Source of the DNA: Lachnospiraceae bacterium | GTDB lineage: Bacteria > Bacillota > Clostridia > Lachnospirales > Lachnospiraceae | Reading direction: 5' to 3' | Assembly: GCA_017467805.1 (NCBI GenBank) | Contig: JAFUKJ010000048.1 | Coordinates: 1-64,000, forward strand | Length of the DNA stretch: 64,000 nucleotides | The notes under the pieces: generated by a model | What the model was told of the DNA's origin: nothing | The model's database searches: none | Seen by the model: the letters and a program-made list of their open reading frames with translations, nothing else | Shown here: positions 1 to 13,354 of the stretch, piece after piece | Numbering within the stretch: position 1 is the stretch's first letter | How the letters are laid out: each line of letters opens with the position of its first letter | Position numbers and translations under genes: made by a program

Positions 1-1640
1 TCAAATGGATAATGATGCTGTGCAAATGGCATAGCTCCTGAGTCGAACCAGCAATCAAGAACCTCTGGTACACGACGCATAGTCTTACCACACTTAGGAC
101 ATGGATATGTCACTTCATCAATGTATGGTCTGTGAAGCTCTACCTTAGCTGACTCAGGGTTTCCTGTCTTCTCAGCAAGCTCAGCACGGCTTCCGATACA
201 CTCCTGATGTCCGCATTCACACTCCCAGATATTTAAAGGAGTTCCCCAGTAACGGTTACGAGAGATAGCCCAGTCCTGAATATTCTCAAGCCAGTTACCA
301 AAACGTCCCTTACCAATTGACTCAGGAATCCAGTTAACTGTGTTATTGTTACGAATCAAATCATCCTTAACTGCTGTCTCCTTGATGTACCAAGACTCAC
401 GTGCATAGTAAATCAATGGAGTATCACATCTCCAGCAGTGTGGATACTCATGCTCAAACTTAGGTGCATCGAATAACTTGCCCTCTGCCTCTAAATCCTT
501 CAAAATAGCAGGGTCTGCATTCTTAACAAAAGTGCCTGCATAAGCAGTCTCTTCTGTCATCTCACCCTTACCATTTACGAACTGTACAAATGGAAGATCA
601 TACTTACGACCAACGTTCGCATCGTCCTCACCAAATGCAGGTGCGATATGAACGATACCTGTACCATCTGACATAGTAACGTAGTTATCACATGTTACGA
701 AGTGTGCCTTCTTACCCTGCTTTGCAGCAACCTCTGTTGCCCATGGGAATAATGACTCATATTCCTTATACTCTAAATCCTTACCCTTGTAAGTCTCTAA
801 TACTTCGTATGCCTTAACACCATTCTCTTCATCTGCAAGCTTACCAAGTACATTGTCAAGAAGTGCCTGTGCCATATAGTAAGTATAGCCATCAGCAGCC
901 TTAACCTTGCAGTATGTCTCCTCAGGATTCATACAAAGAGCAACGTTTGATGGTAATGTCCAAGGTGTTGTTGTCCATGCTAAGAAATAAGCATCCTCAC
1001 CTACAACCTTGAAACGAACTACTGCGGAACGCTCCTTAACGGTCTTATAGCCCTGTGAAACCTCAGCTGTTGAAAGTGGAGTACCACAACGAGGACAATA
1101 AGGAACAATCTTGAAGCCCTTGTATAATAAGTTCTTATTCCAGATTTCCTTTAAAGCCCACCACTCAGACTCGATAAAGTTATCATCATAGGTTACATAT
1201 GGGTCATCCATATCAGCCCAGAAACCAACTGTTCCTGAGAAATCCTCCCACATGCCCTTGTACTTCCATACAGACTCTTTACACTTACAGATAAATGGCT
1301 CCATACCATACTCTTCAATCTGCTCCTTACCGTTAAGGCCAAGTAACTTCTCTACCTCAAGCTCTACAGGAAGACCGTGTGTATCCCATCCAGCCTTACG
1401 AGGAACCATGTAGCCCTTCATAGTTCTGTAACGAGGAATCATATCCTTAATAACACGAGTTAATACGTGTCCAATATGTGGCTTACCATTAGCTGTTGGT
1501 GGTCCATCATAGAATGTATAGGTCTCACCTTCCTTACGATTCTCCATACTCTTTCTAAAAATGTCATTGTCTTTCCAGAACTTCTCAACTTCTTTTTCTC
1601 TTTCAACGAAGTTCATATTAGTCGATACTTTGTTATACAT
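1..1640 (-). CDS. ileS: Isoleucyl-tRNA synthetase, 5' part (runs off the window)
   Basis: Charges tRNA-Ile with isoleucine in the cytoplasm. The translated N-terminal ~547 residues include the class I HIGH-type motif in GPPTANGKPHIGH near residue 50, the editing-domain segment TTTPWTLPSN and the motif ENIQDWAISRNRYWGTP. A full enzyme has about 1,040 residues, so the KMSKS loop and C-terminal zinc region lie beyond base 1. The start is the ATG at 1640-1638, preceded by a strong AGGAGGT site. It is driven by the promoter and T-box leader just upstream, so it should be induced when tRNA-Ile is uncharged. Identity is firm. Confidence 0.97.
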   Translation of the reverse strand, partial: MYNKVSTNMNFVEREKEVEKFWKDNDIFRKSMENRKEGETYTFYDGPPTANGKPHIGHVLTRVIKDMIPRYRTMKGYMVPRKAGWDTHGLPVELEVEKLLGLNGKEQIEEYGMEPFICKCKESVWKYKGMWEDFSGTVGFWADMDDPYVTYDDNFIESEWWALKEIWNKNLLYKGFKIVPYCPRCGTPLSTAEVSQGYKTVKERSAVVRFKVVGEDAYFLAWTTTPWTLPSNVALCMNPEETYCKVKAADGYTYYMAQALLDNVLGKLADEENGVKAYEVLETYKGKDLEYKEYESLFPWATEVAAKQGKKAHFVTCDNYVTMSDGTGIVHIAPAFGEDDANVGRKYDLPFVQFVNGKGEMTEETAYAGTFVKNADPAILKDLEAEGKLFDAPKFEHEYPHCWRCDTPLIYYARESWYIKETAVKDDLIRNNNTVNWIPESIGKGRFGNWLENIQDWAISRNRYWGTPLNIWECECGHQECIGSRAELAEKTGNPESAKVELHRPYIDEVTYPCPKCGKTMRRVPEVLDCWFDSGAMPFAQHHYPF

Positions 1641-1656
1641 GTTCTACCTCCTAAAA

Positions 1657-1755
1657 TTATTTATCCTTTTTATCTTTCTTTTCCTTTTTCGATGTCACTA
1701 CTACATCAATAATATCAATAATTATCTCTATTATGCCTTCTATAAAGTCTGACAA
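1657..1755 (-). CDS. Possible 32-codon leader ORF between the T-box and ileS
   Basis: A short frame begins with TTG at 1755, seven bases after a strong AAGGGGG ribosome site, and stops 14 bases before the ileS start. The predicted peptide has an acidic, hydrophobic amphipathic first part (SDFIEGIIEIIIDIIDVVV) and a lysine-rich tail (KKEKKDKKDK). It lies after the T-box terminator, so it would be translated only when ileS is read through. It could be a real membrane-associated small protein, or a ribosome-loading leader for ileS. I do not recognise a family, and a chance ORF remains possible. Confidence 0.45.
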   Translation of the reverse strand: MSDFIEGIIEIIIDIIDVVVTSKKEKKDKKDK

Positions 1756-1775
1756 TTATTTACCCCCTTAGAAAA

Positions 1776-2058
1776 CAAAAAGCTTCCGCCCGTAAAGGAC
1801 GAAAGCCATAAAGTTTCACAACCACCATTACGTCATACGCATCGATTAAACGATTTAATATGCTCTCCTGTAACGTAGAAGCTACGTCAGCACTTACTGT
1901 TCTCAAAATATATCGCAAAAACAATCTTTTCAGCACTGCAACTCAGAAGTGATATTCCATATCTTCCTACTCTTATCGGCTCTCACCATCTCCGACTCGC
2001 TGGGAATTTCCAAAGATATGTACTGTCTTCGTCATAGTCTTTATATTTTATTACATTA
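1776..2058 (-). promoter_or_regulatory. T-box riboswitch of ileS (isoleucine, AUC specifier)
   Basis: Reading the minus strand, the leader has a long Stem I region and a specifier-like loop GGAATATCACTTCTGAG with ATC at 1953-1951, an isoleucine codon. It then carries a T-box-like core (TAATGGTGGTTGTG at about 1830-1817) and a terminator whose arms GCTTTCGTCC and GGGCGGAAGC are followed by TTTTTGTTTT (about 1806-1776). Uncharged tRNA-Ile would stabilise the antiterminator and let ileS be transcribed. Exact stem borders were judged by eye. Confidence 0.88.
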
Positions 2059-2065
2059 TTTTCTT

Positions 2066-2095
2066 AGTATAGTCTTTCTACCACGGACTTGTCAA
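2066..2095 (-). promoter_or_regulatory. Promoter of ileS
   Basis: Minus-strand -35 TTGACA (2095-2090) and -10 TATACT (2071-2066) are separated by 18 bases, just before the T-box leader. The -35 box begins only 13 bases from the left direct repeat of the integrated phage, so the insertion left this promoter intact. Confidence 0.8.
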
Positions 2096-2107
2096 GAATA
2101 TATCATT

Positions 2108-2121
2108 AAATAAATGCTGTC
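2108..2121. repeat. Left 14-bp direct repeat (candidate attL)
   Basis: AAATAAATGCTGTC, identical to 12004-12017. Joining the host flanks across this repeat would let the minus-strand ATPase gene end with the codons ATG ACA GCA TTT ATT TAA, a tidy stop inside the repaired site. Confidence 0.65.
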
Positions 2122-2184
2122 TGAAAAATCTATAATAAAAGAGTAATAAGAAATCGCACTAAAAAGTGCCAAAATACAAAGGTT

Positions 2185-2202
2185 TTTCCGTTTAAACGGA
2201 AA
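2185..2202. repeat. Palindrome copy 1 (TTTCCGTTTAAACGGAAA)
   Basis: Perfect 18-bp inverted repeat in the leader of the first phage gene, directly before its purine-rich ribosome site. Identical to five other copies inside the phage. Confidence 0.95.
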
Positions 2203-2220
2203 GGAAAGAGAGAAGAAAAA

Positions 2221-2466
2221 ATGAAGAGTTTAATGACAGTTTTTAACACACCGATTACCGTTACGCATAATGGAATGCACGTAGAATTTTTTAACAATGA
2301 CAGTGAAGTACTTGACTTTATCAGTAAGACAATTTCACATAATGCCAATCTCAAACCGCAGTTAGTAGTAGATAACAACATCAATGGCGATATGATTCTA
2401 ATTGTATATCAGTACTCTACCATTTACAAAGAAATGTTTTTAATTGAGATTGAGGAGGATTTCTAA
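2221..2466 (+). CDS. Phage protein of unknown function (81 aa)
   Basis: First gene of the phage's left-hand operon. It starts at ATG 2221 after a purine-rich ribosome site (GGAAAGGAAAGAGAG) that immediately follows palindrome copy 1. The product is small, soluble and slightly acidic, with no membrane segment or recognisable motif. The stop TAA shares one base with the start of the next gene (TAATG), so the two are translationally coupled. Its position before the DNA-binding and ssDNA-binding genes suggests a part in replication or control, but that is inference only. Confidence 0.72.
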   Translation: MKSLMTVFNTPITVTHNGMHVEFFNNDSEVLDFISKTISHNANLKPQLVVDNNINGDMILIVYQYSTIYKEMFLIEIEEDF

Positions 2467-2741
2467 TGTTTTTCAGAAATTTTATTGAATTATATTTTAA
2501 CTTCTTCAATGAGCTTTGCTTGGATTTAGGACAGATTACAAGTTGTTTTGAAAGAAAAGAGCTTGCACACGCTCGTACAATGTACGACAAAGCAATGGCA
2601 CGAATTGAATTATTTCTTGCTTTAGGTTTTATCAATAAAGACATATTCGATTTGTTGACATCTGAATTAGATAACTACTACAATGATAAATTTTTAAAAT
2701 TTTTGATAGGAGAATTTGACAATGGCAAAGAAGAAAACTAA
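2466..2741 (+). CDS. Phage protein of unknown function (91 aa)
   Basis: Starts at the ATG that overlaps the previous stop, with GAGGAGG 6 bases upstream (2454-2460). The product is helical in character: a hydrophobic N-terminus (FFRNFIELYFNFFNELCLDL), a central charged segment and a C-terminal acidic tail. It overlaps the start of the next gene by 20 bases, so three genes form one tightly packed unit. I recognise no family. A replication accessory or host-takeover role would fit the position but is unsupported by any motif. Confidence 0.7.
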   Translation: MFFRNFIELYFNFFNELCLDLGQITSCFERKELAHARTMYDKAMARIELFLALGFINKDIFDLLTSELDNYYNDKFLKFLIGEFDNGKEEN

Positions 2742-3522
2742 CGATATAGAAACCGCTATCAATCCGCCAGTAGTTGCGGAAGAAATAAAAAACTCAAATA
2801 ACGTTTCATCTCCCGATGAACCCGCAGAAGTAAAAGGGGTAGAAGTGGAAACACTTCCCCCTGCTACTGCAAAAGATGAAACACTGCTTGGTTTTACAGT
2901 AGACGAAATCAAAGAGGCAGACAAACACGCAAAACGCGTTGTATCCGAGCTTGGCAAGGCAGAAAAAGCATTTATTCAAGTAGCTTGTGAAATGGCTTGG
3001 CTCTACTGTGGCAACCGTTGGCAAGCATTAGAAACCAACATGAACTTTGAAGAGTTCGCAAAAGCTCGTTTTGGCTTCAAGAAGTCGCAAGCCTACGCCC
3101 TTGTAGACCTCGTAAACCGCTTTGGCGATGAAGATGAAAACGGTAATTTCAAGATTGACGCAAAGTATAAAGATTACAGTCAGACGCAGTTAGTCAATAT
3201 CATGCGTTTAACGAATGAACAAATCGCCGAACACATCACGCCAAAGATGACTGTAGCGGAAATTAAAAAGATTGTGAAAGAGCTTAACAACCGCGAACCG
3301 CTTGAAATCGAGGGCGAAACCGCTGACGCAGGACAGACAGACGAAACCGAGCAGGACGAAAACATCATTGATGTAAACGCAAAGGAATTGAATGTCAATG
3401 ACCTAATGACATTTGCAGACTTTGAGACATTCGAGGGCGAAAGCGACACACTTTTTAATCTCGTAAACAACGCTTTTAAGGAACATAAAGCGTGCAAAGT
3501 TAGGGTTTGTGTGGAGTGGTAA
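2722..3522 (+). CDS. Phage DNA-binding-like protein (266 aa)
   Basis: The ATG at 2722 is preferred because AGGAGA lies nine bases upstream; an in-frame TTG at 2716 is too close to that site. The first ~55 residues are low-complexity and rich in Glu, Pro and Val. Residues ~60-200 form a helical region containing FAKARFGFKKSQAYALVDL and later TPKMTVAEIKKIVKELNN. Both segments look like helix-turn-helix or ParB/replication-protein helices. The C-terminus is acidic. Such proteins occur in clostridial mobile elements, but I cannot name the family with certainty. It could bind the six palindromes or the replication origin; this is inference. Confidence 0.72.
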   Translation: MAKKKTNDIETAINPPVVAEEIKNSNNVSSPDEPAEVKGVEVETLPPATAKDETLLGFTVDEIKEADKHAKRVVSELGKAEKAFIQVACEMAWLYCGNRWQALETNMNFEEFAKARFGFKKSQAYALVDLVNRFGDEDENGNFKIDAKYKDYSQTQLVNIMRLTNEQIAEHITPKMTVAEIKKIVKELNNREPLEIEGETADAGQTDETEQDENIIDVNAKELNVNDLMTFADFETFEGESDTLFNLVNNAFKEHKACKVRVCVEW

Positions 3523-3630
3523 AATACCACTCCTACAGATAAATAATAATTAACATAATCACTATCAATAAGGCGCAAGCCACAAGAGGAACGGCTATAA
3601 GCCAAGAGAAGAAAAGGAGTATAAAACAAG

Positions 3631-3918
3631 ATGAAGATTACAAACAACAAAGTAGAAAACGTAAGAGTATTAACAATTGACGATTCAAGCAAGAGCAAGG
3701 ATGGCAAAGCAACTTACTGGAAATTAGGCGTAATGATTGGCTCTACTGTCGGCATGGTAAAGTGTAATGATGATGTTGCAGAAATCGTAAAGCCAAACGG
3801 CGTGTATGACCTCGAGGCAACATATGATGATACATACGAGACAGTTTCATACAAATTTACACGCGTATTACGCGAACACCCTCAGAACGCAGGCGCAGGG
3901 GCAACCGCTACAAAATAG
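3631..3918 (+). CDS. Probable ssDNA-binding protein (gene V-like, 95 aa)
   Basis: In filamentous phages a protein of this size coats the single-stranded genome before assembly and can repress translation. The product begins MKITNNKVENVRV and alternates beta-strand-like stretches (YWKLGVMIGSTVGMVKC, GVYDLEATYDDTYETVSYKF), consistent with a small OB-like fold, then ends in a flexible AGAGATATK tail. The ATG follows AAGGAGTATAAAACAAG. It sits between the DNA-binding-like gene and the coat gene, where gene V lies in many inoviruses. Sequence identity to known gene V proteins could not be tested, so the role rests on size, composition and position. Confidence 0.6.
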   Translation: MKITNNKVENVRVLTIDDSSKSKDGKATYWKLGVMIGSTVGMVKCNDDVAEIVKPNGVYDLEATYDDTYETVSYKFTRVLREHPQNAGAGATATK

Positions 3919-4317
3919 CCTTACTTACTCATTGGGGCGTTGGTAGACAGTCCGCGCCCCTTTGACCTCAATATAGAATTTTCCGTTTAAACGGAAAACG
4001 GTATCATTCCAATATGAACCAAATCCGAGAGCGAGGAGCGGTTCGGATAGATACCCACACAAAGATTATAACGTTCGGGAGAGTTTCTTCATTAGACACA
4101 CTTACGGCTTGTGTCTCTCTCCCACTCTTTCCTTACTAATTAACCGCCTAGCGTCTAGGCTGGCACAAAGCACTTAGCAAGGACAAGAGTAAACGCAGTC
4201 CGCGCTTAGTGCGACTGACTGATACGCTGAATACCTAACGGTATTCAATAACTTTAATCATTCGACTTGTGGGAGAAGTCTTATGATAAATAATTAATGT
4301 AGAAAGGGGAAAAGCAT
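3919..4317 (+). other. Structured non-coding region before the coat gene
   Basis: About 400 bases without a convincing ORF but with many inverted repeats: palindrome copy 2 (3980-3997); ATCCGA/TCGGAT (4023-4028/4043-4048); a two-part hairpin GGGAGAG/CTCTCCC (4077-4083/4117-4123) enclosing AGACACA/TGTGTCT (4094-4100/4110-4116); GCCTAG/CTAGGC with a 3-base loop (4146-4160); and GAATACC/GGTATTC (4229-4246). Filamentous phage intergenic regions hold the replication origins and packaging signal in such hairpins. Which role applies here cannot be told by eye. Confidence 0.6.
3980..3997. repeat. Palindrome copy 2
   Basis: Same 18-bp palindrome, here extending to 20 bp (3979-3998), 60 bases after the ssDNA-binding-like gene. 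At RNA level it would form an 8-bp stem with a UUAA loop, so it could also act as a processing or termination hairpin. Confidence 0.95.
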
Positions 4318-4512
4318 ATGTTAGGATTACTAGCAACAGAAACAACAGCTTCTGCTATTGATATGACAGTAGTCAATATGTTGATTGAACTTGTAAAGTC
4401 TTTATTGACATTATTTACAGTGTTCCCAATTAACATCTTTTTAGTAGCAGGACTTGTCGGTGTAGGCTTCGGTATTTTCCGTAAAGCAAAGGGCGCGGCA
4501 GGCGGTAAGTAA
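4318..4512 (+). CDS. Major coat protein, pVIII-like (64 aa)
   Basis: Thousands of copies of such a protein sheath the phage filament. The product has the classic layout: a short mildly polar N-terminal region (MLGLLATETTASAIDMTVV), one long hydrophobic stretch (about residues 22-52) and a basic glycine-rich tail (RKAKGAAGGK) that would contact DNA. There is no obvious cleaved signal peptide, unlike M13 pVIII. The ATG follows AAAGGGG at good spacing. It precedes the pIII-like gene. Identification is from architecture and context rather than sequence match. Confidence 0.75.
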   Translation: MLGLLATETTASAIDMTVVNMLIELVKSLLTLFTVFPINIFLVAGLVGVGFGIFRKAKGAAGGK

Positions 4513-4589
4513 AAACAGTTTATGTAAAAGGGGAAAGGCAGGGGAAATGTTCCCTTGCCTTTTAACTTTAATAAGGAAAGGAGTATAAA

Positions 4590-6455
4590 GTGAAAGAAAA
4601 GATAAAAGACTTTTTCCGTTTAAACGGAAAATATACAACAAAACAACGAAACCTTGAAAAAGAATGCCAACGGGCATTATTCAAAGCAGAATTAAAAGAA
4701 ATACTTGTAACAGTTGGTATATCCATATTAATTTCGTTACTGATTTGCGCATTTTTATTCGGTAATTTAGTAGTTCACGCGGAAGAAACAAGAACCGTTG
4801 ATTTTAGGACTGGTTTTACATCAAATTATGATGAATCTAACGTTGCTGACCATAGATACGATGTAAGCGTAACGGGAACTGGTAACTTTAATGTAAGAGG
4901 TTATTTTTTTGAACAGTCTGTTGGCAATACAAATACGGTGTACAGAGGTATTATTTACTTGTTGTCAAACGAGGATTTCAGTTACTCTATAACTTCTGTT
5001 AGTAGCGGTGCTACTCAGAAATTTAGTGCTACTGAGGAAGATGGTGTATATTACAGTGAACTTTTCGACGGTACATTCTTTTGTCGTAACGGCGAAACAA
5101 TCACACCGTACGGAACGTATTACTACACTTTCAGCAGTAACTTAACAACTGACTGGAACGCAGGATCGATTGATTTAACACAAGATAATTATGATTCTTC
5201 TGAAACGTTTACCGTATCAGAAACAGAAGTAGACAGTTCAAGCAATGCCACCACTACAGAAACAACAGTATTTTCTTGTACTGTTCCGTTTGAGGTAGCG
5301 CGAATTGATTATACTTTAGATGAAGTAAATTATAGCGAATATTACGCACTCTTTACTAATTATGACAAAACCGAAACGCTTACCGTTACTGTTGATGGCA
5401 CTCTTTTTGCATCATACTATCTATCTGATATTAGTAGTAAAGAATCGGGCGATAATTATTACGGCATTTATAGAATTGCAGAAACTATAAACGGCTACTA
5501 CACCACTACACGATATTTCCAACATACTGCCGACGCTGTCGACTACATTTACAACTATGGCGAATACACATCAACAATATGGTCAGAAATATTTGATATG
5601 TACATCAACGGCGAATTATTAAAAGATACAGAAAATGAAGAAACTCAACCGACTTACATATATAATTCAGCTTTAGATTTTGCGCAAATTTCCGCTGAAT
5701 ATAATTTGAAATACACTATAAAAAAAGACCTTACTGGTGCATGGAATTTTATATCCCCTAGCGAAGCAGGAATTCAATTTCACTGGACTAATAATCGAAG
5801 TGTAGATGATGCATATTTGAAATTTGATATATACGGCACATTTTACGATAGTATGTGGGCGACAAGCGGAACGTATACGCATATTACTGTTAGCGATGTT
5901 AATAAATCAGATTGTGCATATTTGTTGCAGCAAAATAATCTTGTTGAATTAGCAAGACAAGCAAACGGTGTTGAAAACGGACATGGTTTAGATATTAATT
6001 ATATTTATGTGCAAGCTTATGGAACTGTTGACGGTGTTTTATCTCGCTCTAGAATTTACAAATTTAATAATGAATTGATAAGCGATTATGGCAATGCTGA
6101 TTCTGAGTATGACGAGTATGTACCCGAAATTACAAGCGGTGTCAGCTTACCAGTAGATTATGAATTAGATGAAACATTGACTGACCCCGAAGTAGTAGAA
6201 CCCGATGCGGATACAACATCTACAACGGTTATTACTACCCCAGTGGATGACCTTGACTATACATCATATTACGATGAGGAGTCACTTTTAAAGGCATTAA
6301 CAAAATTTTACGATATGTTGAAAAACATTATTTCTACATTAGGACAATTTCCAACGTTGTTTGCTAATGTATTTAGTTTTTTACCTGCGGAAATAACTGT
6401 TTTAATTTGCGGTTCACTATTGGCTTGTATATTCCTCAGATTTATAGGTAGGTAG
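4590..6455 (+). CDS. pIII-like adsorption/minor coat protein (621 aa)
   Basis: The start is GTG at 4590 behind GGAAAGGAG. The N-terminus is a long basic stretch, then a hydrophobic segment (about residues 39-60) ending VVHA before EETRT, which looks like a signal peptide with an unusually long cytoplasmic part. Residues ~65-570 form a large Tyr/Asn/Thr/Ser-rich exported domain. The C-terminus has a membrane anchor (about 598-618) and a short basic end (FLRFIGR), as in pIII, which binds the host receptor and frees the virion. Palindrome copy 3 lies inside the gene and encodes FFRLNGK at residues 8-14. The receptor-binding part resembles nothing I know, as expected for a fast-evolving phage tip. 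Confidence 0.72.
   Translation: MKEKIKDFFRLNGKYTTKQRNLEKECQRALFKAELKEILVTVGISILISLLICAFLFGNLVVHAEETRTVDFRTGFTSNYDESNVADHRYDVSVTGTGNFNVRGYFFEQSVGNTNTVYRGIIYLLSNEDFSYSITSVSSGATQKFSATEEDGVYYSELFDGTFFCRNGETITPYGTYYYTFSSNLTTDWNAGSIDLTQDNYDSSETFTVSETEVDSSSNATTTETTVFSCTVPFEVARIDYTLDEVNYSEYYALFTNYDKTETLTVTVDGTLFASYYLSDISSKESGDNYYGIYRIAETINGYYTTTRYFQHTADAVDYIYNYGEYTSTIWSEIFDMYINGELLKDTENEETQPTYIYNSALDFAQISAEYNLKYTIKKDLTGAWNFISPSEAGIQFHWTNNRSVDDAYLKFDIYGTFYDSMWATSGTYTHITVSDVNKSDCAYLLQQNNLVELARQANGVENGHGLDINYIYVQAYGTVDGVLSRSRIYKFNNELISDYGNADSEYDEYVPEITSGVSLPVDYELDETLTDPEVVEPDADTTSTTVITTPVDDLDYTSYYDEESLLKALTKFYDMLKNIISTLGQFPTLFANVFSFLPAEITVLICGSLLACIFLRFIGR
4613..4630. repeat. Palindrome copy 3, inside the pIII-like gene
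   Basis: Same palindrome, 24 bases into the coding sequence of the pIII-like gene and contributing in-frame codons. As an mRNA hairpin it would sit just downstream of the start codon, where translational control is plausible. Confidence 0.95.
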
Positions 6456-6457
6456 AT

Positions 6458-6610
6458 ATGGATAATATAAAAATTATAATTGATACTTGTATTAGTATTT
6501 TTAAATTGAGTATTGATGTGTGCGGTTACACAATATCGCTTTTGGAAGTGTTGGCGTTTTGTGTATGTGGCTATTTGTTATTACTACTATTTTATGGTTC
6601 ATCAAAGTAA
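6458..6610 (+). CDS. Small phage membrane protein (50 aa)
   Basis: A short frame starts two bases after the pIII-like stop. It reads as a hydrophobic protein with a membrane segment near its C-terminus (LEVLAFCVCGYLLLLLFY) and no charged tail. Its ribosome site is weak (GGTAGG), so coupling to pIII is likely. The placement after pIII matches the minor coat or assembly proteins of filamentous phages. Its stop codon abuts the stop of a gene on the other strand at 6611. No sequence family was recognised. Confidence 0.5.
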   Translation: MDNIKIIIDTCISIFKLSIDVCGYTISLLEVLAFCVCGYLLLLLFYGSSK

Positions 6611-6784
6611 TTATTCATTATTATTGCTTTGGTTGTTCTTTTCTTTGTCGTATTTAATAAGTGCTTCATACACTCCATTTTTAACGGCTGAACTTATAAA
6701 TAACCATACTATAAATAATGATATTACTAAGTAAGCAATTATAGTAATAATTCCGCCACTTATTATTTGCTCTAATATATCCAT
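6611..6784 (-). CDS. Small membrane protein on the opposite strand (57 aa)
   Basis: On the minus strand an ATG at 6784 follows AGGAG and, just before it, palindrome copy 4. The product has one clear membrane segment (ISGGIITIIAYLVISLFIVWLF) and a polar, charged C-terminal tail ending KNNQSNNNE. That pattern, together with a good ribosome site, makes it a credible gene although no other phage gene is on this strand. It is tail-to-tail with the 50-residue gene with no gap. It might serve superinfection exclusion or control, but this is speculation. Confidence 0.6.
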   Translation of the reverse strand: MDILEQIISGGIITIIAYLVISLFIVWLFISSAVKNGVYEALIKYDKEKNNQSNNNE

Positions 6785-6801
6785 TATATTACACTCTCCT
6801 T

Positions 6802-6819
6802 TTTCCGTTTAAACGGAAA
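6802..6819. repeat. Palindrome copy 4, between divergent genes
   Basis: Same palindrome, placed between the minus-strand membrane-protein gene (start 6784) and the plus-strand Glu/Thr-rich gene (start 6864). This is a natural spot for an operator serving both directions. Confidence 0.95.
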
Positions 6820-6863
6820 TTTTATCATTTATCACTATAGCACAAAAGAAAGGATTTTTAAAC

Positions 6864-7454
6864 ATGGAAAATGAAACAAATACAATTGTTGAAACTGTCG
6901 AAGAAACAGAAGAAATGACAGAATTAACCGTAATAGAAACTGAATCAATTATTGATTCTGAAATAGCTACAGAATCGGAAGAAGTTACAGAAGCAAGCGA
7001 AACAGAACCCGAGTCTATTATTGAATCAGAAGCTACTACAGAAGCGGAAGAAACAACAGAAGCTACAGAAGCAAGCGAAACAGAACCCGAATCTATTCTA
7101 GAAGAAACCACAACCGAAGTCGAAACGGAAGAAACGACAGAAACGGAGTGCGCCACGCAAAGCGAATCTGAAAGCGAAACTGGAGAGTCTGACGGAAGAG
7201 GAACTGAAAGCAGTGATAATAACGCTACTATTGACGGAGAATATTATCAAGGCTATTTGGAAAGCATTGAAACGTTAATGCAAGAGCATAACGACCTTAT
7301 TCAAGAGCAAACAAATGTTATAAATAACGGCTTTAATATGCTTGCGGTTATCATCTTAGGAATATATGTTTGTAAGAGCGTGAAATGGTCTGTTCAAAAG
7401 GCAACTAAAAAAGAAGTGCCTTATATGCCAATGAAAAGAGAGGGGAAAAAGTAA
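6864..7454 (+). CDS. Glu/Thr/Ser-rich protein with C-terminal membrane anchor (196 aa)
   Basis: The first ~125 residues are almost all Glu, Thr, Ser and Ala with internal repeats such as EASETEPESI (twice) and runs of ETTE. There follows a short helical segment (LESIETLMQEHNDLIQEQTNV) and one membrane segment (about residues 153-171), then a basic tail (KATKKEVPYMPMKREGKK). There is no signal peptide. The gene lies between pIII-like and Zot genes, where minor coat protein pVI is found in other inoviruses. The acidic repeat region may vary in length by slippage. ATG 6864 follows AAAGAAAGGA. Confidence 0.7.
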   Translation: MENETNTIVETVEETEEMTELTVIETESIIDSEIATESEEVTEASETEPESIIESEATTEAEETTEATEASETEPESILEETTTEVETEETTETECATQSESESETGESDGRGTESSDNNATIDGEYYQGYLESIETLMQEHNDLIQEQTNVINNGFNMLAVIILGIYVCKSVKWSVQKATKKEVPYMPMKREGKK

Positions 7455-7597
7455 TGAATGAATTTATAACATTTGTATTAGGGGAAAATTCAAACATATT
7501 CACTCCTGCTACTGTCCTAGCAATATTCGCTTTATGTCTTGGACTGGAATGTATTGCAAGTATAATCTCTAACACATTGAGAGCAGGGGGTATGTAA
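7454..7597 (+). CDS. Small phage membrane protein (47 aa)
   Basis: The ATG shares one base with the stop of the preceding gene (TAATG), and the stop is directly followed by the TTG start of the Zot gene. The product has a short polar N-terminus, one membrane segment (ATVLAIFALCLGLECIASII) and ends TLRAGGM. The gene's last codons contain the AGGGGG ribosome site for Zot. This tight packing supports a true gene. It is the size of the phage end-cap proteins pVII and pIX, but no sequence evidence assigns it. Confidence 0.62.
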   Translation: MNEFITFVLGENSNIFTPATVLAIFALCLGLECIASIISNTLRAGGM

Positions 7598-8497
7598 TTG
7601 GTAACATTATTCTTAATAGCATTAATCGTGCTTTGTTGTTTTTCGGTAACTGTGCGCGTTATCTGCTTTCATCCATTTAAAGCCTGCTATTATGCCGTAG
7701 TGGATTTGTATGACTATATCATACATAAGAAATGGCGTAATGCTGATTACGGTTTCATCATTGGTATTATTGGCTTGTTTGGTAAGGGCAAGACTTTAAC
7801 CGCCGTACATAAGGTTATCAAAGCATACAACAAACATAATGATAAAATGGTGTGGTGTCCGCGTCGTAAGAAGTGGGTAACTCAAAAAGTCCGTATCATT
7901 TCAAACGTAGAATTGCAAGGCGTACCATATGAACGCTTTATTAGCCTTATGCAATTAGTACAGATTGCGGAAAGCATAACCGAATATGATGACGAACACG
8001 ACACATTGACAATCACGCTTGTGCTTGGCGATGAATTCAGCGTTCAGCTAAATTCAAGAGCATTTAAAACAAACATTGACCCACTATTTTTGAATACTAT
8101 CCTAACTTGTAGACACTTCCATATGGGTTTGTATTACACCGCGCAAAGATTCGGTCATGTAGACGCTCTCTTGCGTCAAGTAACGCAGACTGTTGTCAAC
8201 TGTATCAAAGTATGGCGTGTTGAGGTGCAAGAGGACTTTGACGCATGGGAACTTGAAAACGCAACAAGCCCTACTATGATAACACCTAAACGCCGTTACG
8301 GTTGGTTTATCAGCAACAAGGATTACAATTCATATGATACATACGCAACAGTAGGCAATCTTTCCAAGTCATGCAAAGAGGGAGATATGCTGACGCAAGA
8401 GGAAATTCTGCAACTGCAAGTCGGCGCAACAACTGATAGCGGTCAGATTATGAACCCGTCTAGGAAATACCGCAGACATAGGAAGAAAATGGCATAG
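7598..8497 (+). CDS. Zot/pI-type assembly ATPase (299 aa)
   Basis: Drives extrusion of the filament through the membrane using ATP. The protein opens with a membrane segment (residues 1-17), has a Walker A motif GLFGKGKT at 59-66 and a Walker B motif LVLGDE at 141-146, followed by the Zot-family stretch LNTILTCRHFHMGLYYTAQRFGHVD. The C-terminus is strongly basic (RKYRRHRKKMA). The membrane segment is N-terminal rather than behind the ATPase domain as in M13 pI. The start is TTG after AGGGGG. Together with the Rep this is the best evidence that the element is an inovirus. Confidence 0.88.
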   Translation: MVTLFLIALIVLCCFSVTVRVICFHPFKACYYAVVDLYDYIIHKKWRNADYGFIIGIIGLFGKGKTLTAVHKVIKAYNKHNDKMVWCPRRKKWVTQKVRIISNVELQGVPYERFISLMQLVQIAESITEYDDEHDTLTITLVLGDEFSVQLNSRAFKTNIDPLFLNTILTCRHFHMGLYYTAQRFGHVDALLRQVTQTVVNCIKVWRVEVQEDFDAWELENATSPTMITPKRRYGWFISNKDYNSYDTYATVGNLSKSCKEGDMLTQEEILQLQVGATTDSGQIMNPSRKYRRHRKKMA

Positions 8498-8548
8498 CAT
8501 ATAGCAGGCGGCGCGACAAGCCTTTAGGCGCGCGCCCCTGCTATATGC
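8497..8548. other. Long hairpin directly after the Zot gene
   Basis: Perfect 12-bp arms GCATATAGCAGG (8497-8508) and CCTGCTATATGC (8537-8548), one mismatch, then an inner GGCGCG/CGCGCC stem and a 15-base loop. No T-run follows, so a simple terminator is unlikely. A long imperfect hairpin is the form of filamentous phage packaging signals. Confidence 0.7.
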
Positions 8549-8564
8549 GGAAAGGGAAAGAGAA

Positions 8565-8828
8565 ATGAAAAAAGCTAGATTACATTTTACACCTTTAGAA
8601 ATGGAATATATCAAGAAATACAAAGAAACAGATGATACTACCCGTCAAAAACTTAGAGAGCAAGGGGTAGATATTGCTATTTATGATGAGCTTGTACAGT
8701 TGCGCTATGACACTATATGGCTGAGAGGTCAAAGAGACCACCTACAACAACGTTGTCAAGAGCTAGAACAGTCCTTGTATGAGTTCCAAAGCGAAATACC
8801 ATTTGCAGATGTACCCGCTCCTACTTGA
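8565..8828 (+). CDS. Phage protein with coiled-coil character (87 aa)
   Basis: ATG 8565 follows GGAAAGGGAAAGAG. The protein is soluble and helical, with a charged middle and heptad-like leucines and glutamines (LRGQRDHLQQRCQELEQSLYEF), then a short acidic proline-containing end. It lies between the Zot-end hairpin and the Rep gene, so it probably belongs to the replication unit. A regulator or a Rep accessory protein would fit; I do not recognise the family. Confidence 0.68.
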   Translation: MKKARLHFTPLEMEYIKKYKETDDTTRQKLREQGVDIAIYDELVQLRYDTIWLRGQRDHLQQRCQELEQSLYEFQSEIPFADVPAPT

Positions 8829-8885
8829 CAGTAGTAATAAGTTATACTCACGTTAGTGAAAAACTTATATCAAGGGGAGTACATC

Positions 8886-9653
8886 ATGTTATACGACACA
8901 AGGGTCAAGGGTTACGCTAAAGGCGTACAAGTAACAATGTATTCCAAAACATTTGAAAAATCAGAAACGCAGGAAGAAAAGAAAATAAATGAAAAATTTA
9001 CTAAGGCTTTTCAAAATGAAAATCGGACGGAAGAAAGCGCAAAGGACTGTATGCGCATTTCCATTAATCAAACTAAAAATAGAATATATGATATAGCAAG
9101 GTCGAATGACTGGAGTTGGTTTTTCACGCTTACATTTGACCGTAAAAAGGTAGATAGTTCCGATTATGACGAAGTGGTAAAGAAATTTACAAAGTGTTTA
9201 AATAATTTACGCGAAAGGGTATGTCCCGATGTGAAATATCTATTCGTACCCGAATTACACGCAGACGGCAAACACTACCACTTCCATGGCATAGCAAGTG
9301 ATTGTGATGAATTGCAATTTTCTTTTAGTGGTAAATTCGATAAAAAAAGCGGACTGCCAATATACAACGTGCGTAACTGGGCGTGGGGATATTCTACCGC
9401 TACACAAGTACAAGATACACAAAGAGTATCAAGCTATATCACGAAATATATAACAAAAGAATGTGTTGGAATACTGAAAAACAAAAAGCGTTACTATGCA
9501 AGTCAAAATGTGCTACGTCCTGCTATCAATTACACGCTTTGTACACAAGATGAATTTCTAGAACAATTCGCAAGTGAAATTTCACACTGTAAAACGATAA
9601 CAGTACCGCAAGCACATTTGCAAGTAACATATTATGAGTTAGATAATATCTAA
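8886..9653 (+). CDS. Rolling-circle replication initiator, HUH family (255 aa)
   Basis: Nicks the double-stranded replicative form to start rolling-circle synthesis of phage ssDNA. It shows the three expected motifs: FFTLTF at 79-84, the metal-binding HFH (132-134) within LHADGKHYHFHGI, and SSYITKYITK with candidate catalytic tyrosines at 184 and 188. ATG 8886 is preferred because AAGGGGAG lies six bases upstream; an in-frame GTG 30 bases earlier lacks such a site. Palindrome copy 5 follows the stop at once. The size and motif spacing fit phage and plasmid Reps of Gram-positive hosts. Confidence 0.88.
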   Translation: MLYDTRVKGYAKGVQVTMYSKTFEKSETQEEKKINEKFTKAFQNENRTEESAKDCMRISINQTKNRIYDIARSNDWSWFFTLTFDRKKVDSSDYDEVVKKFTKCLNNLRERVCPDVKYLFVPELHADGKHYHFHGIASDCDELQFSFSGKFDKKSGLPIYNVRNWAWGYSTATQVQDTQRVSSYITKYITKECVGILKNKKRYYASQNVLRPAINYTLCTQDEFLEQFASEISHCKTITVPQAHLQVTYYELDNI

Positions 9654-9656
9654 CAT

Positions 9657-9674
9657 TTTCCGTTTAAACGGAAA
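9657..9674. repeat. Palindrome copy 5, after Rep
   Basis: Same palindrome, extended to 20 bp (9656-9675), three bases after the Rep stop and directly before the purine-rich ribosome site of the next small gene. The arrangement copies that at palindrome 1. Confidence 0.95.
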
Positions 9675-9703
9675 AATACGGAAAGAGAAAGGAAAGAGGA
9701 AAA

Positions 9704-9847
9704 ATGCCAAGTGATATTTGGATTTTAATTTTAATATTATTTTTAAATTTTTTAGTTTTTTATTTCGCAGAATATGTTTACCCAAAAATAAAAGATAAGA
9801 AAGAGCATAAAGAATTTTATAAAGACCGTTACATACAAATTAGATAA
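9704..9847 (+). CDS. Small phage membrane protein (47 aa)
   Basis: ATG 9704 follows a clear AAGGAAAGAGG site. The product has an N-terminal membrane segment (IWILILILFLNFLVFYFAEYV) and a basic, charged tail (KIKDKKEHKEFYKDRYIQIR). This single-span plus basic-tail plan is typical of filamentous phage minor coat proteins, which place a basic end against the DNA. It begins a run of four tiny genes between Rep and the structured region. Confidence 0.6.
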   Translation: MPSDIWILILILFLNFLVFYFAEYVYPKIKDKKEHKEFYKDRYIQIR

Positions 9848-9865
9848 AGGAAAGGGAAGAGAGAA

Positions 9866-10003
9866 ATGTTGATTTTAGAAACTTACGAATTTTATCGTTT
9901 TGATTTATTTTTTGATTTAATGGCGTTGCTATATCTTATAGCTATTATTGTGTTTTTTGGTGTTGAAATTTACAGAATGAGCGGGGGATGTGTTAAATTA
10001 TGA
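9866..10003 (+). CDS. Small phage membrane protein (45 aa)
   Basis: ATG 9866 follows AAAGGAAAGGGAAGAG. The product has a polar aromatic N-terminus and one membrane segment (LMALLYLIAIIVFFGVEIY), ending RMSGGCVKL. Its last codons hold the GGGGG ribosome site for the following frame, whose ATG overlaps its stop. The function is unknown; coat, assembly or inhibitor roles are all possible. Confidence 0.55.
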   Translation: MLILETYEFYRFDLFFDLMALLYLIAIIVFFGVEIYRMSGGCVKL

Positions 10004-10170
10004 TGAATATAATATTGGCAGTAATTGGATTGTATATGATGTTTATAGCCGTCATAGGCGAACCGCAGTATACTGCAACTATCTTTGTTGTAAAAATACC
10101 ATTGTTTATAATGGGTTTATTTTGTCTTATATATGCTTTAATTTTAGGGGGTGTGATTGCATTATGCTAG
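10000..10170 (+). CDS. Small phage membrane protein with two spans (56 aa)
   Basis: The ATG at 10000 (or the next codon, 10003) overlaps the previous stop. Two hydrophobic stretches (ILAVIGLYMMFIAVIG and PLFIMGLFCLIYALILGGVIAL) are separated by a short loop. The ribosome site GGGGG is 12 bases upstream, somewhat far. Its end overlaps the start of the Cys-rich gene by seven bases. It could be a pore or assembly component; no family is recognised. Confidence 0.52.
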   Translation: MMNIILAVIGLYMMFIAVIGEPQYTATIFVVKIPLFIMGLFCLIYALILGGVIALC

Positions 10171-10400
10171 GAAGAATTAAATTGTTTTTTAATAAAAACA
10201 GACAATGCAAGGCTAACTGTTTAATTTGTAAATATTATGAAACTTGTGTGACCGATTTTGAGATTGCAGAAACAAGCTATATGTTGTGTACAAATAATAA
10301 AGCGTATTACATATGTAAACGTTGTGACAGATTGGTAGATGCTCAACGATATAATTTTAGTAATCACTTATGTTCCATATGTGATAGAGGTATATTTTAA
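10164..10400 (+). CDS. Cys-rich zinc-ribbon-like phage protein (78 aa)
   Basis: The ATG at 10164 overlaps the preceding stop and follows AGGGGGT. The protein carries CKANCLICKYYETC and then CKRC and CSIC pairs 17 residues apart, a C-x2-C/C-x2-C pattern typical of zinc binding. The frame is open upstream to 9990, but that part overlaps two better-supported membrane-protein genes in another frame, so the shorter start is chosen. It may bind nucleic acid or protein as a phage regulator; this is inference from the cysteines. Confidence 0.6.
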   Translation: MLGRIKLFFNKNRQCKANCLICKYYETCVTDFEIAETSYMLCTNNKAYYICKRCDRLVDAQRYNFSNHLCSICDRGIF

Positions 10401-10653
10401 AATAAAGATTTGGCTAAGGAGTTAAAGTAGTGAGTAGTCGACGAATTAAAGCGCGTTTTTTCGAGAGGTGCTCGAAAAATAGACGGCATAGCGCAAAGGA
10501 ACGCCAGTAAAATTGATTTTGAGCGTTAAGAAATAATTAGGTGTTCCTAATTATTTTAGTGAAAAATTGATTTTACCAGTGGTTGCGATATGCCGACGTA
10601 AGCGCAACTAAACTGAAATTTAAAAGGGAGCATAAACAAATTAATAAGCGATA
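10401..10653 (+). other. Main structured non-coding region of the phage
   Basis: About 250 bases with no credible ORF. It contains the hairpin TTTTTCGAG/CTCGAAAAA (10457-10479) and the 116-base cruciform listed separately. In filamentous phages the main intergenic region carries both strand origins and the packaging signal, so this and the region before the coat gene are the chief candidates. Confidence 0.65.
10482..10597. other. 116-base cruciform (candidate origin or packaging signal)
   Basis: Three nested stems share one axis. The outer arms are 10482-10496 and 10583-10597 (13 of 15 pair). The middle arms are 10504-10520 and 10563-10582, each holding AAAATTGATTTT, with a small bulge. The apex is a perfect 11-bp stem AAATAATTAGG/CCTAATTATTT with loop TGTT (10531-10556). 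An element this long is unlikely by chance even in AT-rich DNA. Confidence 0.75.
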
Positions 10654-10685
10654 AGGGTATAGATATATAAGCTATGCCCTTTTTA
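10654..10685 (+). terminator. Rho-independent terminator before the transposase
   Basis: Arms GGGTATAG (10655-10662) and CTATGCCC (10672-10679) with one G-U pair are followed by TTTTT. It separates the structured region from the transposase gene. Confidence 0.7.
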
Positions 10686-10759
10686 TTGCATATGGACGAA
10701 AGCAAACAAAGCGCTAGAAGCGATAAAGCAATATAATCTATAACAAAATATCAAGCTAT

Positions 10760-10799
10760 CTCGTTTTGCGCAGTTTGCCCTGCAAACAAGCAAAACGAG
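10760..10799. other. Nested hairpin upstream of the transposase
   Basis: A perfect 10-bp stem CTCGTTTTGC/GCAAAACGAG encloses a second perfect 6-bp stem GTTTGC/GCAAAC with loop CCT. It ends 11 bases before the transposase ribosome site. It may be an attenuator, a transposase-binding site or a single-strand origin. Confidence 0.65.
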
Positions 10800-10822
10800 C
10801 GAACACAAAAGAGGTCAAAAAA

Positions 10823-11845
10823 TTGAGTGAATACATAACAGAAAATCAGCGGTATATTATAGAGACAATGTTAAAAGATGGCAAAGAACCAAAAGAGATA
10901 GCGAAGCGAATCGGGAAACATTACACAACAGTTTACAGAGAAATAAAACGCGGTACTGTCCTATTACGCAACGGCACAACATGGGAAGATATACCCACCT
11001 ATTGCGCAGATGTGGCGCAACGTAAGCAGGAAACTGCAAGCCATAATAAAGGACTTCCTTTAAAAATAGGTTCAGATATCCAAACAGTGCGTTTCATGGA
11101 ACATTTAATAAAAGACTTGCGCTATTCTGCCTATGCGGTCAATATCGCTTTAAAAACTACTGGCAAGCCTACATTGTGCGTACAAACAATATATAACTAC
11201 ATAAATACTGGTGTATTCCTTAACGTAGATAGAAACGACTTAATATATAATAAGACAAACAAGAAGAAAGAAGAAACCACAACGCGCAGACCGTCATTGC
11301 ATAACCTTGGTGCGCGCTCTATCGAGGACAGACCAAAAGAAGTAAATAAACGGCGTGTATTTGGTCACTGGGAAATGGACACTGTACAAGGCATGAAAGG
11401 CACAACGCCCTGCTTGCTCGTGCTTACAGAACGCCTAACCCGTATTGAGATAATACGCCTACTCCCTAACAAGTGCGCCGATAGCGTATTGAAAGAAATC
11501 AACAGAATAGAGCGTGAACTAGGCGTAAAGCGTTTTAGACAGATATTTAAAACGATTACTTGTGATAACGGCGTAGAGTTTCTAAAACATAGAGAAATAG
11601 AAACAAGTTACAAATCAAAAATGCGTAGAACGTGGCTATATTTCTGTCATGCGTTCGCGTCCTCGGAACGTGGTAGTAATGAAAACGCAAATAAACTGAT
11701 ACGAAAGTATGTGCCAAAAGGTGCGGATATTGGCAACTACACGCGCGAAGAGATAAAGCAGATTGAAAATCTCATTAACAACTACCCTAGAAAGCTATTC
11801 AACGGTTTGTCGTCCACTGAATACGCCCACTCTATCGGGTTTTGA
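10823..11845 (+). CDS. IS30-family transposase, probable phage integrase (340 aa)
   Basis: Starts at TTG 10823 with GAGGT seven bases upstream, giving MSEYITENQRYIIE. An upstream in-frame TTG at 10766 lies within the nested hairpin and lacks a ribosome site. The N-terminal helix-turn-helix (EPKEIAKRIGKHYTTVYREIKRG) and the DDE triad are clear: D186 in HWEMDTVQG, D248 in TCDNGVEF, E287 in GSNENANKLIRKY. The usual IS30 length is 320-380. No flanking IS inverted repeats were seen, so it appears to be a phage gene rather than a separate IS. Spiroplasma filamentous phages also carry IS30-type transposases. Confidence 0.88.
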   Translation: MSEYITENQRYIIETMLKDGKEPKEIAKRIGKHYTTVYREIKRGTVLLRNGTTWEDIPTYCADVAQRKQETASHNKGLPLKIGSDIQTVRFMEHLIKDLRYSAYAVNIALKTTGKPTLCVQTIYNYINTGVFLNVDRNDLIYNKTNKKKEETTTRRPSLHNLGARSIEDRPKEVNKRRVFGHWEMDTVQGMKGTTPCLLVLTERLTRIEIIRLLPNKCADSVLKEINRIERELGVKRFRQIFKTITCDNGVEFLKHREIETSYKSKMRRTWLYFCHAFASSERGSNENANKLIRKYVPKGADIGNYTREEIKQIENLINNYPRKLFNGLSSTEYAHSIGF

Positions 11846-11846
11846 T

Positions 11847-11864
11847 TTTCCGTTTAAACGGAAA
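11847..11864. repeat. Palindrome copy 6, after the transposase
   Basis: Same palindrome, extended to 20 bp (11846-11865), starting at the base after the transposase stop and running into the terminator stem. Copies 1 and 6 lie near the two ends of the element. Confidence 0.95.
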
Positions 11865-11894
11865 AATAGACCGCTATTCTCTAACGGTCTATTT
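11864..11894 (+). terminator. Terminator after the transposase
   Basis: A perfect 10-bp stem AAATAGACCG (11864-11873) and CGGTCTATTT (11885-11894) with an 11-base loop. The T-run is short, so efficiency is uncertain. Confidence 0.6.
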
Positions 11895-11977
11895 ATTGTG
11901 CAATTCTTATAAATTATCAACTATTTCCCTACCATAAAACCACATATTTTAGTGCATTTTGCTACTTTTGAAAAATT

Positions 11978-13354
11978 TTAGCGATTTTTGTTGACTTTTT
12001 CATAAATAAATGCTGTCATATAAATAGGTATATATGTGATTCCTTCTTCATATTTCAAGTCCTTTGTATAGATAATATATCTATCTTCCATTTTTATTTG
12101 ATATTTTTGAACTAGATAATCAAAAGATTTATGTGACCTGTAGTTCGAGGACTTTACTTCTATCGGACATATTTTCTTCTTTTTTACCGTCATAAAATCG
12201 ATTTCATATTTCTTTTCTTTGGTAACCTCTTTTGGCTTATACATATACTCGTGAAAATACAATCCATGACCTGAAGCACGTAACATTTGTGCTACCATAT
12301 TTTCCAATATCATCCCTTGATTAATTCCTAAATCATCAATAATCAATGCTTTATATAAGTCCTCGTCTGATTCGTCTCTATTTCTCATAATCTGTGTCAC
12401 TAACAAGCCTGTATCACCCATATAAAGCTTAAAATTACTTCTATCAGAAAATAATTCTAATGCTACTTCGGGAGCGGTTACATTAATACATTCATTTCCT
12501 ATCATGGATTCTGCTATAAAACTTACCGCATCAACATAATTTTGAAAACGAGCATTCTTATCCACTAGCGAAAACTTAAAATGTGAATTTTTATTTTCCA
12601 ACTGCTCTGGAATGGTTTTATATACAACCGATGCTTTTTCCCTATTCTCATCATCATATTTCGCTAAGTCTTCTTCATACAAATTCAATATATTTCTTTT
12701 AATAAAATCAATTTGTGCAAAGGTCTTACCACTAACAAATGCTTCAACTGCTTGCGGCATCCCCCCTACTGCCATATAAGTACGAAATGTTTTCATAATT
12801 TTTCTATGAATTGCATCACCTAAGGGTTTTCTTTTCTCATAAGCATTTCTAATTGTATCATATGTAATATCATCGCCCATCGCCCATAAATATTCTTCAA
12901 AATCCATGGGATACATTTTGATTCGATATTCTTCGGAAGGGATAAGAATATCCTTTACATTTTTCTTAATCGAAATCAATGAACCTGTTTCAATATAGTC
13001 ATATCTTCCATCTGCAACAAGATATTTGATAGCTTGCCTTGCTAATGGGAATAACTGAACCTCATCAAATATTAATACACATCTTTTCCCCTTTAAACTT
13101 CTACCCTTAAGCAAAAACAGATTGCGAAAAAATGTATCTAGATCATCCATATTTTCTACAAAATTATTCTTAATATCTTTATTTTCTTTTGCAAAATCCA
13201 AAATCATATAATCATCGTACTCTTGCTTTGCAAACTCTTCAACAATCGTACTTTTTCCAATTCGTCTAGCACCTTCCAACAGCACTGCAGAAGATCCTGC
13301 TGATACTTCTTTCCACTCTAGCAGTTTCGTATATACCTTACGCTTGAAAAGCAT
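11978..13354 (-). CDS. AAA-type ATPase with DUF4143-like C-terminus (458 aa)
   Basis: An ATP-binding protein of a widespread bacterial family of unknown role, often thought linked to mobile elements or toxins. Walker A is GARRIGKST near residue 29, Walker B CVLIFDEVQ near 94. The C-terminal part has EIDFM and CPIEVKS, the E-V-K pattern of a PD-(D/E)XK-like fold. M10 of the open frame is chosen as start because GGAAG lies seven bases before it. The last residues (YEKVNKNR) lie beyond the phage direct repeat and seem phage-supplied; the original end was probably -YMTAFI. The ATPase core is intact. Confidence 0.82.
   Translation of the reverse strand: MLFKRKVYTKLLEWKEVSAGSSAVLLEGARRIGKSTIVEEFAKQEYDDYMILDFAKENKDIKNNFVENMDDLDTFFRNLFLLKGRSLKGKRCVLIFDEVQLFPLARQAIKYLVADGRYDYIETGSLISIKKNVKDILIPSEEYRIKMYPMDFEEYLWAMGDDITYDTIRNAYEKRKPLGDAIHRKIMKTFRTYMAVGGMPQAVEAFVSGKTFAQIDFIKRNILNLYEEDLAKYDDENREKASVVYKTIPEQLENKNSHFKFSLVDKNARFQNYVDAVSFIAESMIGNECINVTAPEVALELFSDRSNFKLYMGDTGLLVTQIMRNRDESDEDLYKALIIDDLGINQGMILENMVAQMLRASGHGLYFHEYMYKPKEVTKEKKYEIDFMTVKKKKICPIEVKSSNYRSHKSFDYLVQKYQIKMEDRYIIYTKDLKYEEGITYIPIYMTAFIYEKVNKNR
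12004..12017. repeat. Right 14-bp direct repeat (candidate attR)
   Basis: Identical to 2108-2121 and located within the 3' coding end of the ATPase gene, where it encodes part of MTAFI on the minus strand. Confidence 0.65.

Follow-up and report, generated by a model that had tools for sequence, protein, structure and literature searches.

Repeated palindromes in a filamentous prophage as candidate operators of its own ParB-like protein

Among the closest described systems are KorB of plasmid RK2, a CTP-dependent sliding clamp with O_B operators and the partner KorA (PMC11790492), and the repressor of Cluster A mycobacteriophages, whose stoperators are asymmetric sites with one main orientation to transcription (PMC6550527). 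The plasmid prophage N15 carries four ParB-type sites, IR1-4, for its SopB protein (PMC7205306), host Spo0J is reported to trap DNA of phage phi29 in spores (PMC9437464), and ParZ of Borrelia, possibly phage-derived, is a DNA-binding protein that substitutes for ParB (PMC9712426). Here we describe a prophage in a 64,000-nucleotide stretch of a Lachnospiraceae bacterium genome (contig JAFUKJ010000048.1, positions 1 to 64,000; hereafter the window). Judged by its genes, the element is an inovirus-type (filamentous) prophage, and it carries six copies of an 18-bp perfect palindrome, TTTCCGTTTAAACGGAAA. We infer, with a probability of about 0.75, that the six palindromes are double-stranded DNA operators of the phage's own ParB-like protein, the product of the open reading frame (ORF) at 2722-3522.

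As with stoperators, there are many sites per phage genome and the word is phage-specific and changes with the protein, and in phage L195/L204 (L numbers are our handles for the stretches compared) the sites have one main orientation. Unlike stoperators, the sites in the window are perfect palindromes, and the stoperator repressor is not called ParB-like in the excerpts of PMC6550527. KorB differs in that the present protein belongs to a small phage and that no CTPase domain was found, the Pfam matches of 23 family members at E 0.01 including no ParB CTPase domain. Of the features of the full ParB/Noc/KorB family, the helix-turn-helix domain is predicted, whereas an N-terminal CTPase domain and a ParA partner were not found; positions 1-12500 of the window hold no ParA signature of the KGGxGKT type. 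Partition of N15 requires its own ParA-type partner; unlike N15, 23 of 25 loci, including inoviruses and phi29-like phages, lack the KGGxGKT signature in the stretch fetched, and it is present near the homologues in L305 and L317. The likeness to N15 lies in a ParB-family protein and several palindromes on one phage, and the palindrome of the conjugative element L305 (G118:C13) has the half-site GTGCGAC, which is that of N15 SopB (PMC7205306). The likeness to phi29 lies in repeated ParB-type palindromes, found blind in phi29 by our scan, and in a related DNA polymerase (34% identity), but phi29 borrows host Spo0J whereas these phages encode a protein of their own. For ParZ, a possible link is borfam_49 (NCBIfam NF033725, 'chromosome replication/partitioning'), a family to which 7 of 23 homologues gave a match. 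Noc works at the membrane and the chromosome and possesses a CTPase domain; no such domain was found in the 2722-3522 family.

What computation shows is the repeated motif itself, the domain predicted in the protein, the joint presence of protein and repeated palindrome in unrelated elements, and a word that changes along with the protein at places that are partly conserved. All six copies given in the preliminary description are exact (Table 1). From base composition alone, 3e-7 copies would be expected in the 9.7 kb that hold them, none of 100 shuffles had six copies (mean 0.03), and the window contains no seventh copy with up to three mismatches allowed. The confinement of the copies to the element, also claimed at the outset, extends to the whole genome of 2,994,647 bases, in which the 12-bp core, CCGTTTAAACGG, occurs six times, always in the prophage; among 39 genomes of the genus, the 18-mer is present in one, the source genome itself. 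Copies 1 and 5 (plus strand) and 4 (minus strand) had been placed before ribosome sites, and starts do lie 18, 29 and 17 nucleotides (nt) away, respectively; copy 4 is the one between divergent genes and copy 3 the one within a coding sequence (4590-6455), as described. Three copies had been said to lie just after a stop, which is true of two, copies 5 and 6, copy 2 being 61 nt away.

The core recurs in two unrelated kinds of phage: six times in the inovirus of the window and 22 times in IMG/VR contig 3300032030_000463 (17,948 bp), a phi29-like phage whose DNA polymerase matches phrog_1907 (E 2e-130) and is 34% identical to that of phi29. Scans with the 18-mer returned two stretches from IMG/VR and 18 from genome contigs, the latter including L271, a 12,663-bp contig of a 'Tenericutes' metagenome-assembled genome that is a phi29-like phage in which the 16-mer occurs four times exactly and twice with one mismatch. 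Motif matches that stood alone in a genome or viral contig were put down to chance; contig L007, which had seemed to be one of these, has a 12-mer core count of 22.

When 56 ORFs of the window element were compared with 1000 ORFs from 14 stretches of relatives, the sole one with matches beyond the inoviruses was the 2716/2722-3522 product, which matched L352 (7e-8), L280 (9e-5) and L310 (1e-4) by BLASTP and L305 (9e-9) by phmmer. Matches of the rolling-circle replication protein (Rep), the transposase, and the Zot-like, single-stranded-DNA-binding-protein-like (SSB-like) and other products were confined to L301, L342 and L382. A hidden Markov model of 14 homologues, from the window and other genomes of the host family, picked out L271 (1e-13), L204 (3e-9) and L280 (4e-6) among 11,361 ORFs, a profile being needed to detect the more distant homologues. 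Single-protein searches of INPHARED and IMG/VR gave no relative of the 2722-3522 product, INPHARED gave none of the L271 protein, and a search of IMG/VR with the L280 protein returned only L280 itself. Homologues of the 2722-3522 product occur in 19 of 397 host-family genomes, and two profiles detected them across the class, in 6 of 391 genomes and in 8 of 351, counts to which the source genome and overlaps contribute; further homologue-bearing loci came from Rep and protein scans of IMG/VR.

The 2722-3522 product is predicted to have a ParB-type helix-turn-helix DNA-binding domain. Its AlphaFold2 model has predicted local distance difference test scores (pLDDT) of 88-97 per block over residues 61-190; residues 1-59 mostly score below 60, with no secondary structure before residue 60. 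The first 11 rows of its VIA-align comparison are all DNA-binding domains of ParB, Noc or Spo0J, as are the first ten for the distant L280 homologue, with KorB and SopB lower down, and Noc with its binding site (PDB 7ol9, 6y93) is among the best structural neighbours. At the level of sequence, the product matches phrog_15077 (unknown function; E 5e-15), as do 21 of 23 homologues; among the eight weak matches to solved structures, designed coiled coils ranked highest (E 0.0097). Of the ligands proposed in the preliminary description, this product is the right candidate, being the only ORF with matches in non-inovirus loci and having a predicted ParB/Noc fold.

Elements with the protein carry a repeated palindrome more often than controls do. 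In a fixed test, each stretch was scored by how many places, at most, agree with a near-perfect 14-bp palindrome to within one mismatch; the test covered 31 stretches from 29 homologue-bearing elements and 29 control stretches with no homologue at E up to 10. At least three copies were reached in ten elements: the window, L301 (four copies of its own word), L305 (six), L310 (four), L315 (five), L342 (five), L352 (four or five), L271, L280/L041 and L195/L204. With the four elements found through the motif left out, six of 25 elements reached three copies against none of 29 controls (Fisher p 0.007); one shuffle of control L358 did reach three. Among the other 19 elements are short contigs as well as loci whose homologue is larger, and L302, L303, L316, L318 and L353 each have two copies of a good palindrome. 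In L342, fetched through its Rep, five sites match AAGTTCGAACGTTCGAACTT, of which three deviate from it by one or two mismatches, and L382, fetched through the protein, has three copies of GTTCGAACGTTCGAAC.

Twelve phi29-like phages were taken from INPHARED, where DNA polymerase matched 100 and 32 records. L372, the only one to encode a homologue (weak, E 3e-4), has TGTTCGACGTCGAACA at seven or eight places (eight with up to two mismatches). Among the 11 without a homologue, only phi29 repeats a palindrome in the 14-mer test, TGTTTCACGTGGAACA at four places, which we take to be parS sites of host Spo0J, one mismatch from the parS word. Compact phages found without regard to the motif have at least three copies in five of seven stretches (L301, L342, L352, L372 and L382); the remaining two stretches, L302 and L303, are truncated contigs of one genome with two copies. 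Three copies are reached by one of 11 phi29-like phages that lack the protein (Fisher 0.013) and by none of 16 Rep-related loci (Fisher 0.0006). In these last loci, L320-L335, the core is absent too. Under a looser 16-mer test the control phages AD70P2 and Cp-7 each show four AT-rich places, and a still different scan, with gapped 20-mers, gave many AT-rich matches in controls too and was dropped. In open-licence literature, no paper was found whose title or abstract gives an account of such sites in inoviruses or phi29-like phages, and the 18-, 16- and 12-mer strings appear in seven papers, all unrelated.

The word changes with the protein, while the places are partly kept. Across 14 elements, similarity of the helix-turn-helix tracks similarity of the palindrome (Mantel 11/5000; L204, L310 and L352 were entered with a word that was a consensus or had been symmetrised), and the proteins of L342 and L382, 38% identical, both go with GTTCGAACGTTCGAAC. 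The related phi29-like phages L271 and L352 use different palindromes and have four sites in matching places (Table 1), which leaves two sites of L271 and one or two of L352 unpartnered. The window and L301 have in common a site before the first gene and another downstream of the SSB-like gene at a distance of about 60 nt (58 nt from the homologue for L301 site 8700), and L301 and L342 share a site 16-17 nt ahead of the small coat-like gene. Absence of the motif from close relatives had been named beforehand as a reason to discard it, and L301, L342 and L382 do lack the word of the window. These three carry a repeated palindrome of another sequence, however, with some copies at matching places, so that this absence is no refutation.

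Sites tend to stand near gene starts. In 11 stretches with 83 sites in all, 50 sites fall between -30 and +60 nt of a start codon, where 11% of random places would, and 31 of these 50 lie 14-20 nt before it; the statistic misses starts in the window, where the gene caller lost small ORFs and distances come from the ORF list. As compact genomes leave little other room, proximity to starts alone proves no function. A site also stands ahead of the protein's own gene or gene run in the window, L301, L342, L303, L271 and L280, which is consistent with autoregulation, and L301, L342 and L303 have their own palindrome upstream of the first gene. At copy 4, a promoter-like match with an extended -10 on the minus strand ends at 6834, about 15 nt upstream.

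From these results we infer both binding and function. The palindromes are very probably bound as DNA by the 2722-3522 protein, a claim that draws on sequence comparison and a structural model, and the co-occurrence of protein and palindrome together with the predicted fold favours the shared DNA operator over the other options first listed. Presumably a dimer sits on each palindrome, each subunit contacting a half-site. The likeliest function is global control of the phage's genes. By binding where its operon begins, the protein would restrict its own production, and at gene junctions it would block initiation or elongation of transcription, like KorB on RK2 or the stoperator repressors; a private word would make such control specific to a single phage. 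Silencing or autoregulation has a somewhat better than even chance of being the main role. A more tentative suggestion is that the protein represents a new class of mobile-element regulator, in which a ParB-type protein without a CTPase domain is paired with private, distributed palindromes and the whole set of sites switches word with the protein; equally tentative is the idea that filamentous and phi29-like phages have such a class in common with at least one conjugative element. If true, phi29-like phages with the protein would lead a repressed, possibly plasmid-like prophage life. The operator reading, if right, would give a group of inoviruses a testable immunity or silencing switch, suggest that phi29-like phages with the protein have a silent state, and offer a natural series in which the specificity of a ParB-type domain shifts together with that of its sites, up to about 29 in a genome. 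Partition-like proteins such as ParZ would also gain a phage source.

Some observations weigh against the operator reading. For copies 3, 5 and 6 of the window, L301 offers no clear counterpart. In six phage contigs the core is repeated and no homologue was detected; these may be fragments, or users of another protein. All six copies in the window also fold as RNA, with a stem of 7-9 bp and a 4-nt loop; five copies have folding energies of -7.0 to -8.7 kcal/mol and copy 6, taken together with its flanks, reaches -12.9 (z -2.1 to -4.0). Copies 2, 3 and 4 are terminator-like on one strand, where the region has ten such sites and 6.7 are expected.

The main rival, which we consider unlikely, keeps the same protein and sites but makes them chiefly a distributed centromere for partition or tethering, the protein pairing copies, attaching them to the nucleoid or to host ParA, or trapping phage DNA in daughter cells or spores. 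The ParB-type domain of the window and L280 proteins would suit this, as would the L305 homologue directly behind a ParA-type gene, the L317 homologue about 1 kb from one (7189-8034), the NF033725 matches, and the precedents of phi29, with its four near-parS sites and its trapping by Spo0J, and of N15 with IR1-4. Against it stand the 23 loci without a ParA signature and the integrated state of the inovirus, which should need no partition; nor does a centromere call for sites placed 14-20 nt ahead of a start codon, as 31 of the 83 are, although compact genomes again leave little choice.

RNA hairpins in leaders or at gene ends, steering translation, termination or mRNA stability, are an improbable alternative, for all that the folding, the terminator-like copies and the closeness to start codons speak for it. 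The 29 sites of L195/L204, near TCAACC[G/A]TTCAAACGGTTGA with a centre of CA in 18 and TG in five, are polar relative to genes, as such hairpins would be, but their pair 7-14 is G-C in 13, A.C in ten, G.T in four and A-T in two. The A.C pair breaks the RNA stem in those ten sites, which argues against a hairpin, and compensating changes that would keep the stem were not found in the 29. Conservation of the loop equals that of the arms, and words change between relatives along with a protein of predicted DNA-binding fold. The particular version first proposed, a hairpin bound by the SSB-like protein, also lacks support, as the gene for that protein matched only L301 and L342 in the ORF comparison. 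In L195/L204, many sites lie right before a ribosome site, and where an ORF runs through them they recurrently encode TIQTV.

That the palindromes serve recombination, a transposase or restriction, as the preliminary description allowed for recombination, is very improbable: the element does encode a transposase and its gene set is bounded by copies 1 and 6, but four copies lie within that set, transposase matches are limited to inoviruses (14 stretches) whereas phi29-like phages have up to 22 copies, and the transposase-bearing L301, L342 and L382 use other words. Just as improbable is a host protein captured by phages, for which phi29 with Spo0J is a precedent and the six contigs without a homologue might speak, since the host genome has no core outside the phage and the word differs among phages bearing their own ParB-like gene.

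Table 1. Palindrome copies and genes of the window, and sites at matching places in L271 and L352
Feature	Position	Strand	Remarks
Palindrome copy 1	2185..2202		Exact match; ends 18 nt upstream of ATG 2221, first gene of the run holding 2722-3522
Palindrome copy 2	3980..3997		Exact match; 61 nt 3' of the stop of 3631-3918 (SSB-like)
Palindrome copy 3	4613..4630		Exact match; within the start of pIII-like gene 4590-6455, encodes FRLNGK
Palindrome copy 4	6802..6819		Exact match; between divergent genes, 17 nt upstream of minus-strand start 6784
Palindrome copy 5	9657..9674		Exact match; 3 nt past the Rep stop, 29 nt before ATG 9704 (small ORF), ahead of its ribosome site
Palindrome copy 6	11847..11864		Exact match; 1 nt past the transposase stop; adjoins a terminator-like hairpin (minus strand)
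Candidate palindrome ligand, 266 amino acids	2722..3522	+	Predicted ParB/Noc-type DNA-binding domain, residues ~60-190
SSB-like small protein	3631..3918	+	Homologues in L301 and L342
Zot/pI-like morphogenesis ATPase	7598..8497	+	phrog_20922, 2e-5; 56% identity to L382 protein
Rolling-circle replication protein (Rep)	8886..9653	+	PF23343, 6e-13; phrog_3419, 5e-12
Transposase	10823..11845	+	phrog_4646 transposase, 3e-100
L271/L352 shared site 1			Near the end of the first long gene; next start 23 nt from site end in both
L271/L352 shared site 2			After the head-protein gene
L271/L352 shared site 3			Before the gene downstream of the large tail gene; 14 nt in both
L271/L352 shared site 4			Inside the DNA polymerase gene, directly after FDIETTSF; codes FRLNGK vs NQLDN

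The assignment of the element to the inoviruses follows from its Zot/pI-like ATPase, its rolling-circle Rep and its small coat-like and pIII-like genes in order, the last two named from size and position; L301, L342 and L382 are inovirus relatives with matching genes, and the proteins placed equivalently to the ATPase in L301 and L342 match phrog_197 Zot and phrog_1675 pI. From its position and size, the 3631-3918 product is likely to be the single-stranded-DNA-binding protein of the phage; it had no Pfam or PHROG match at E 0.001. The transposase, which we take to be of IS30 type, is presumably the integration enzyme. Between the second site and the coat-like gene, positions 4000-4318 hold some 300 bases without a long ORF, possibly an origin or packaging signal.

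Among the contigs that repeat the core, the related IMG/VR phage contigs L081, L106, L051, L070 and L047, in which no ParB-like homologue was found, carry CCGTTTAAACGG four to six times, mostly about 0.5-1.5 kb apart and with conserved flanks such as CTATCCGTTTAAACGGAT. L214, a phage contig also without a homologue, has a longer palindrome, CGCACCGTTTAAACGGTGCG, three times (7159, 7511 and 8411). A conserved left-end sequence, TATAATNAAAGAGTAATAAGAAATC, lies ahead of the first site in the window (2128-2165), L342 (1-48) and L303 (8210-8265), and is perhaps the element end together with a promoter -10 box. L302 and L303 (G145:C135 and C78) have nearly identical inovirus left ends and differing flanks, which suggests two insertions of such an inovirus in one genome.

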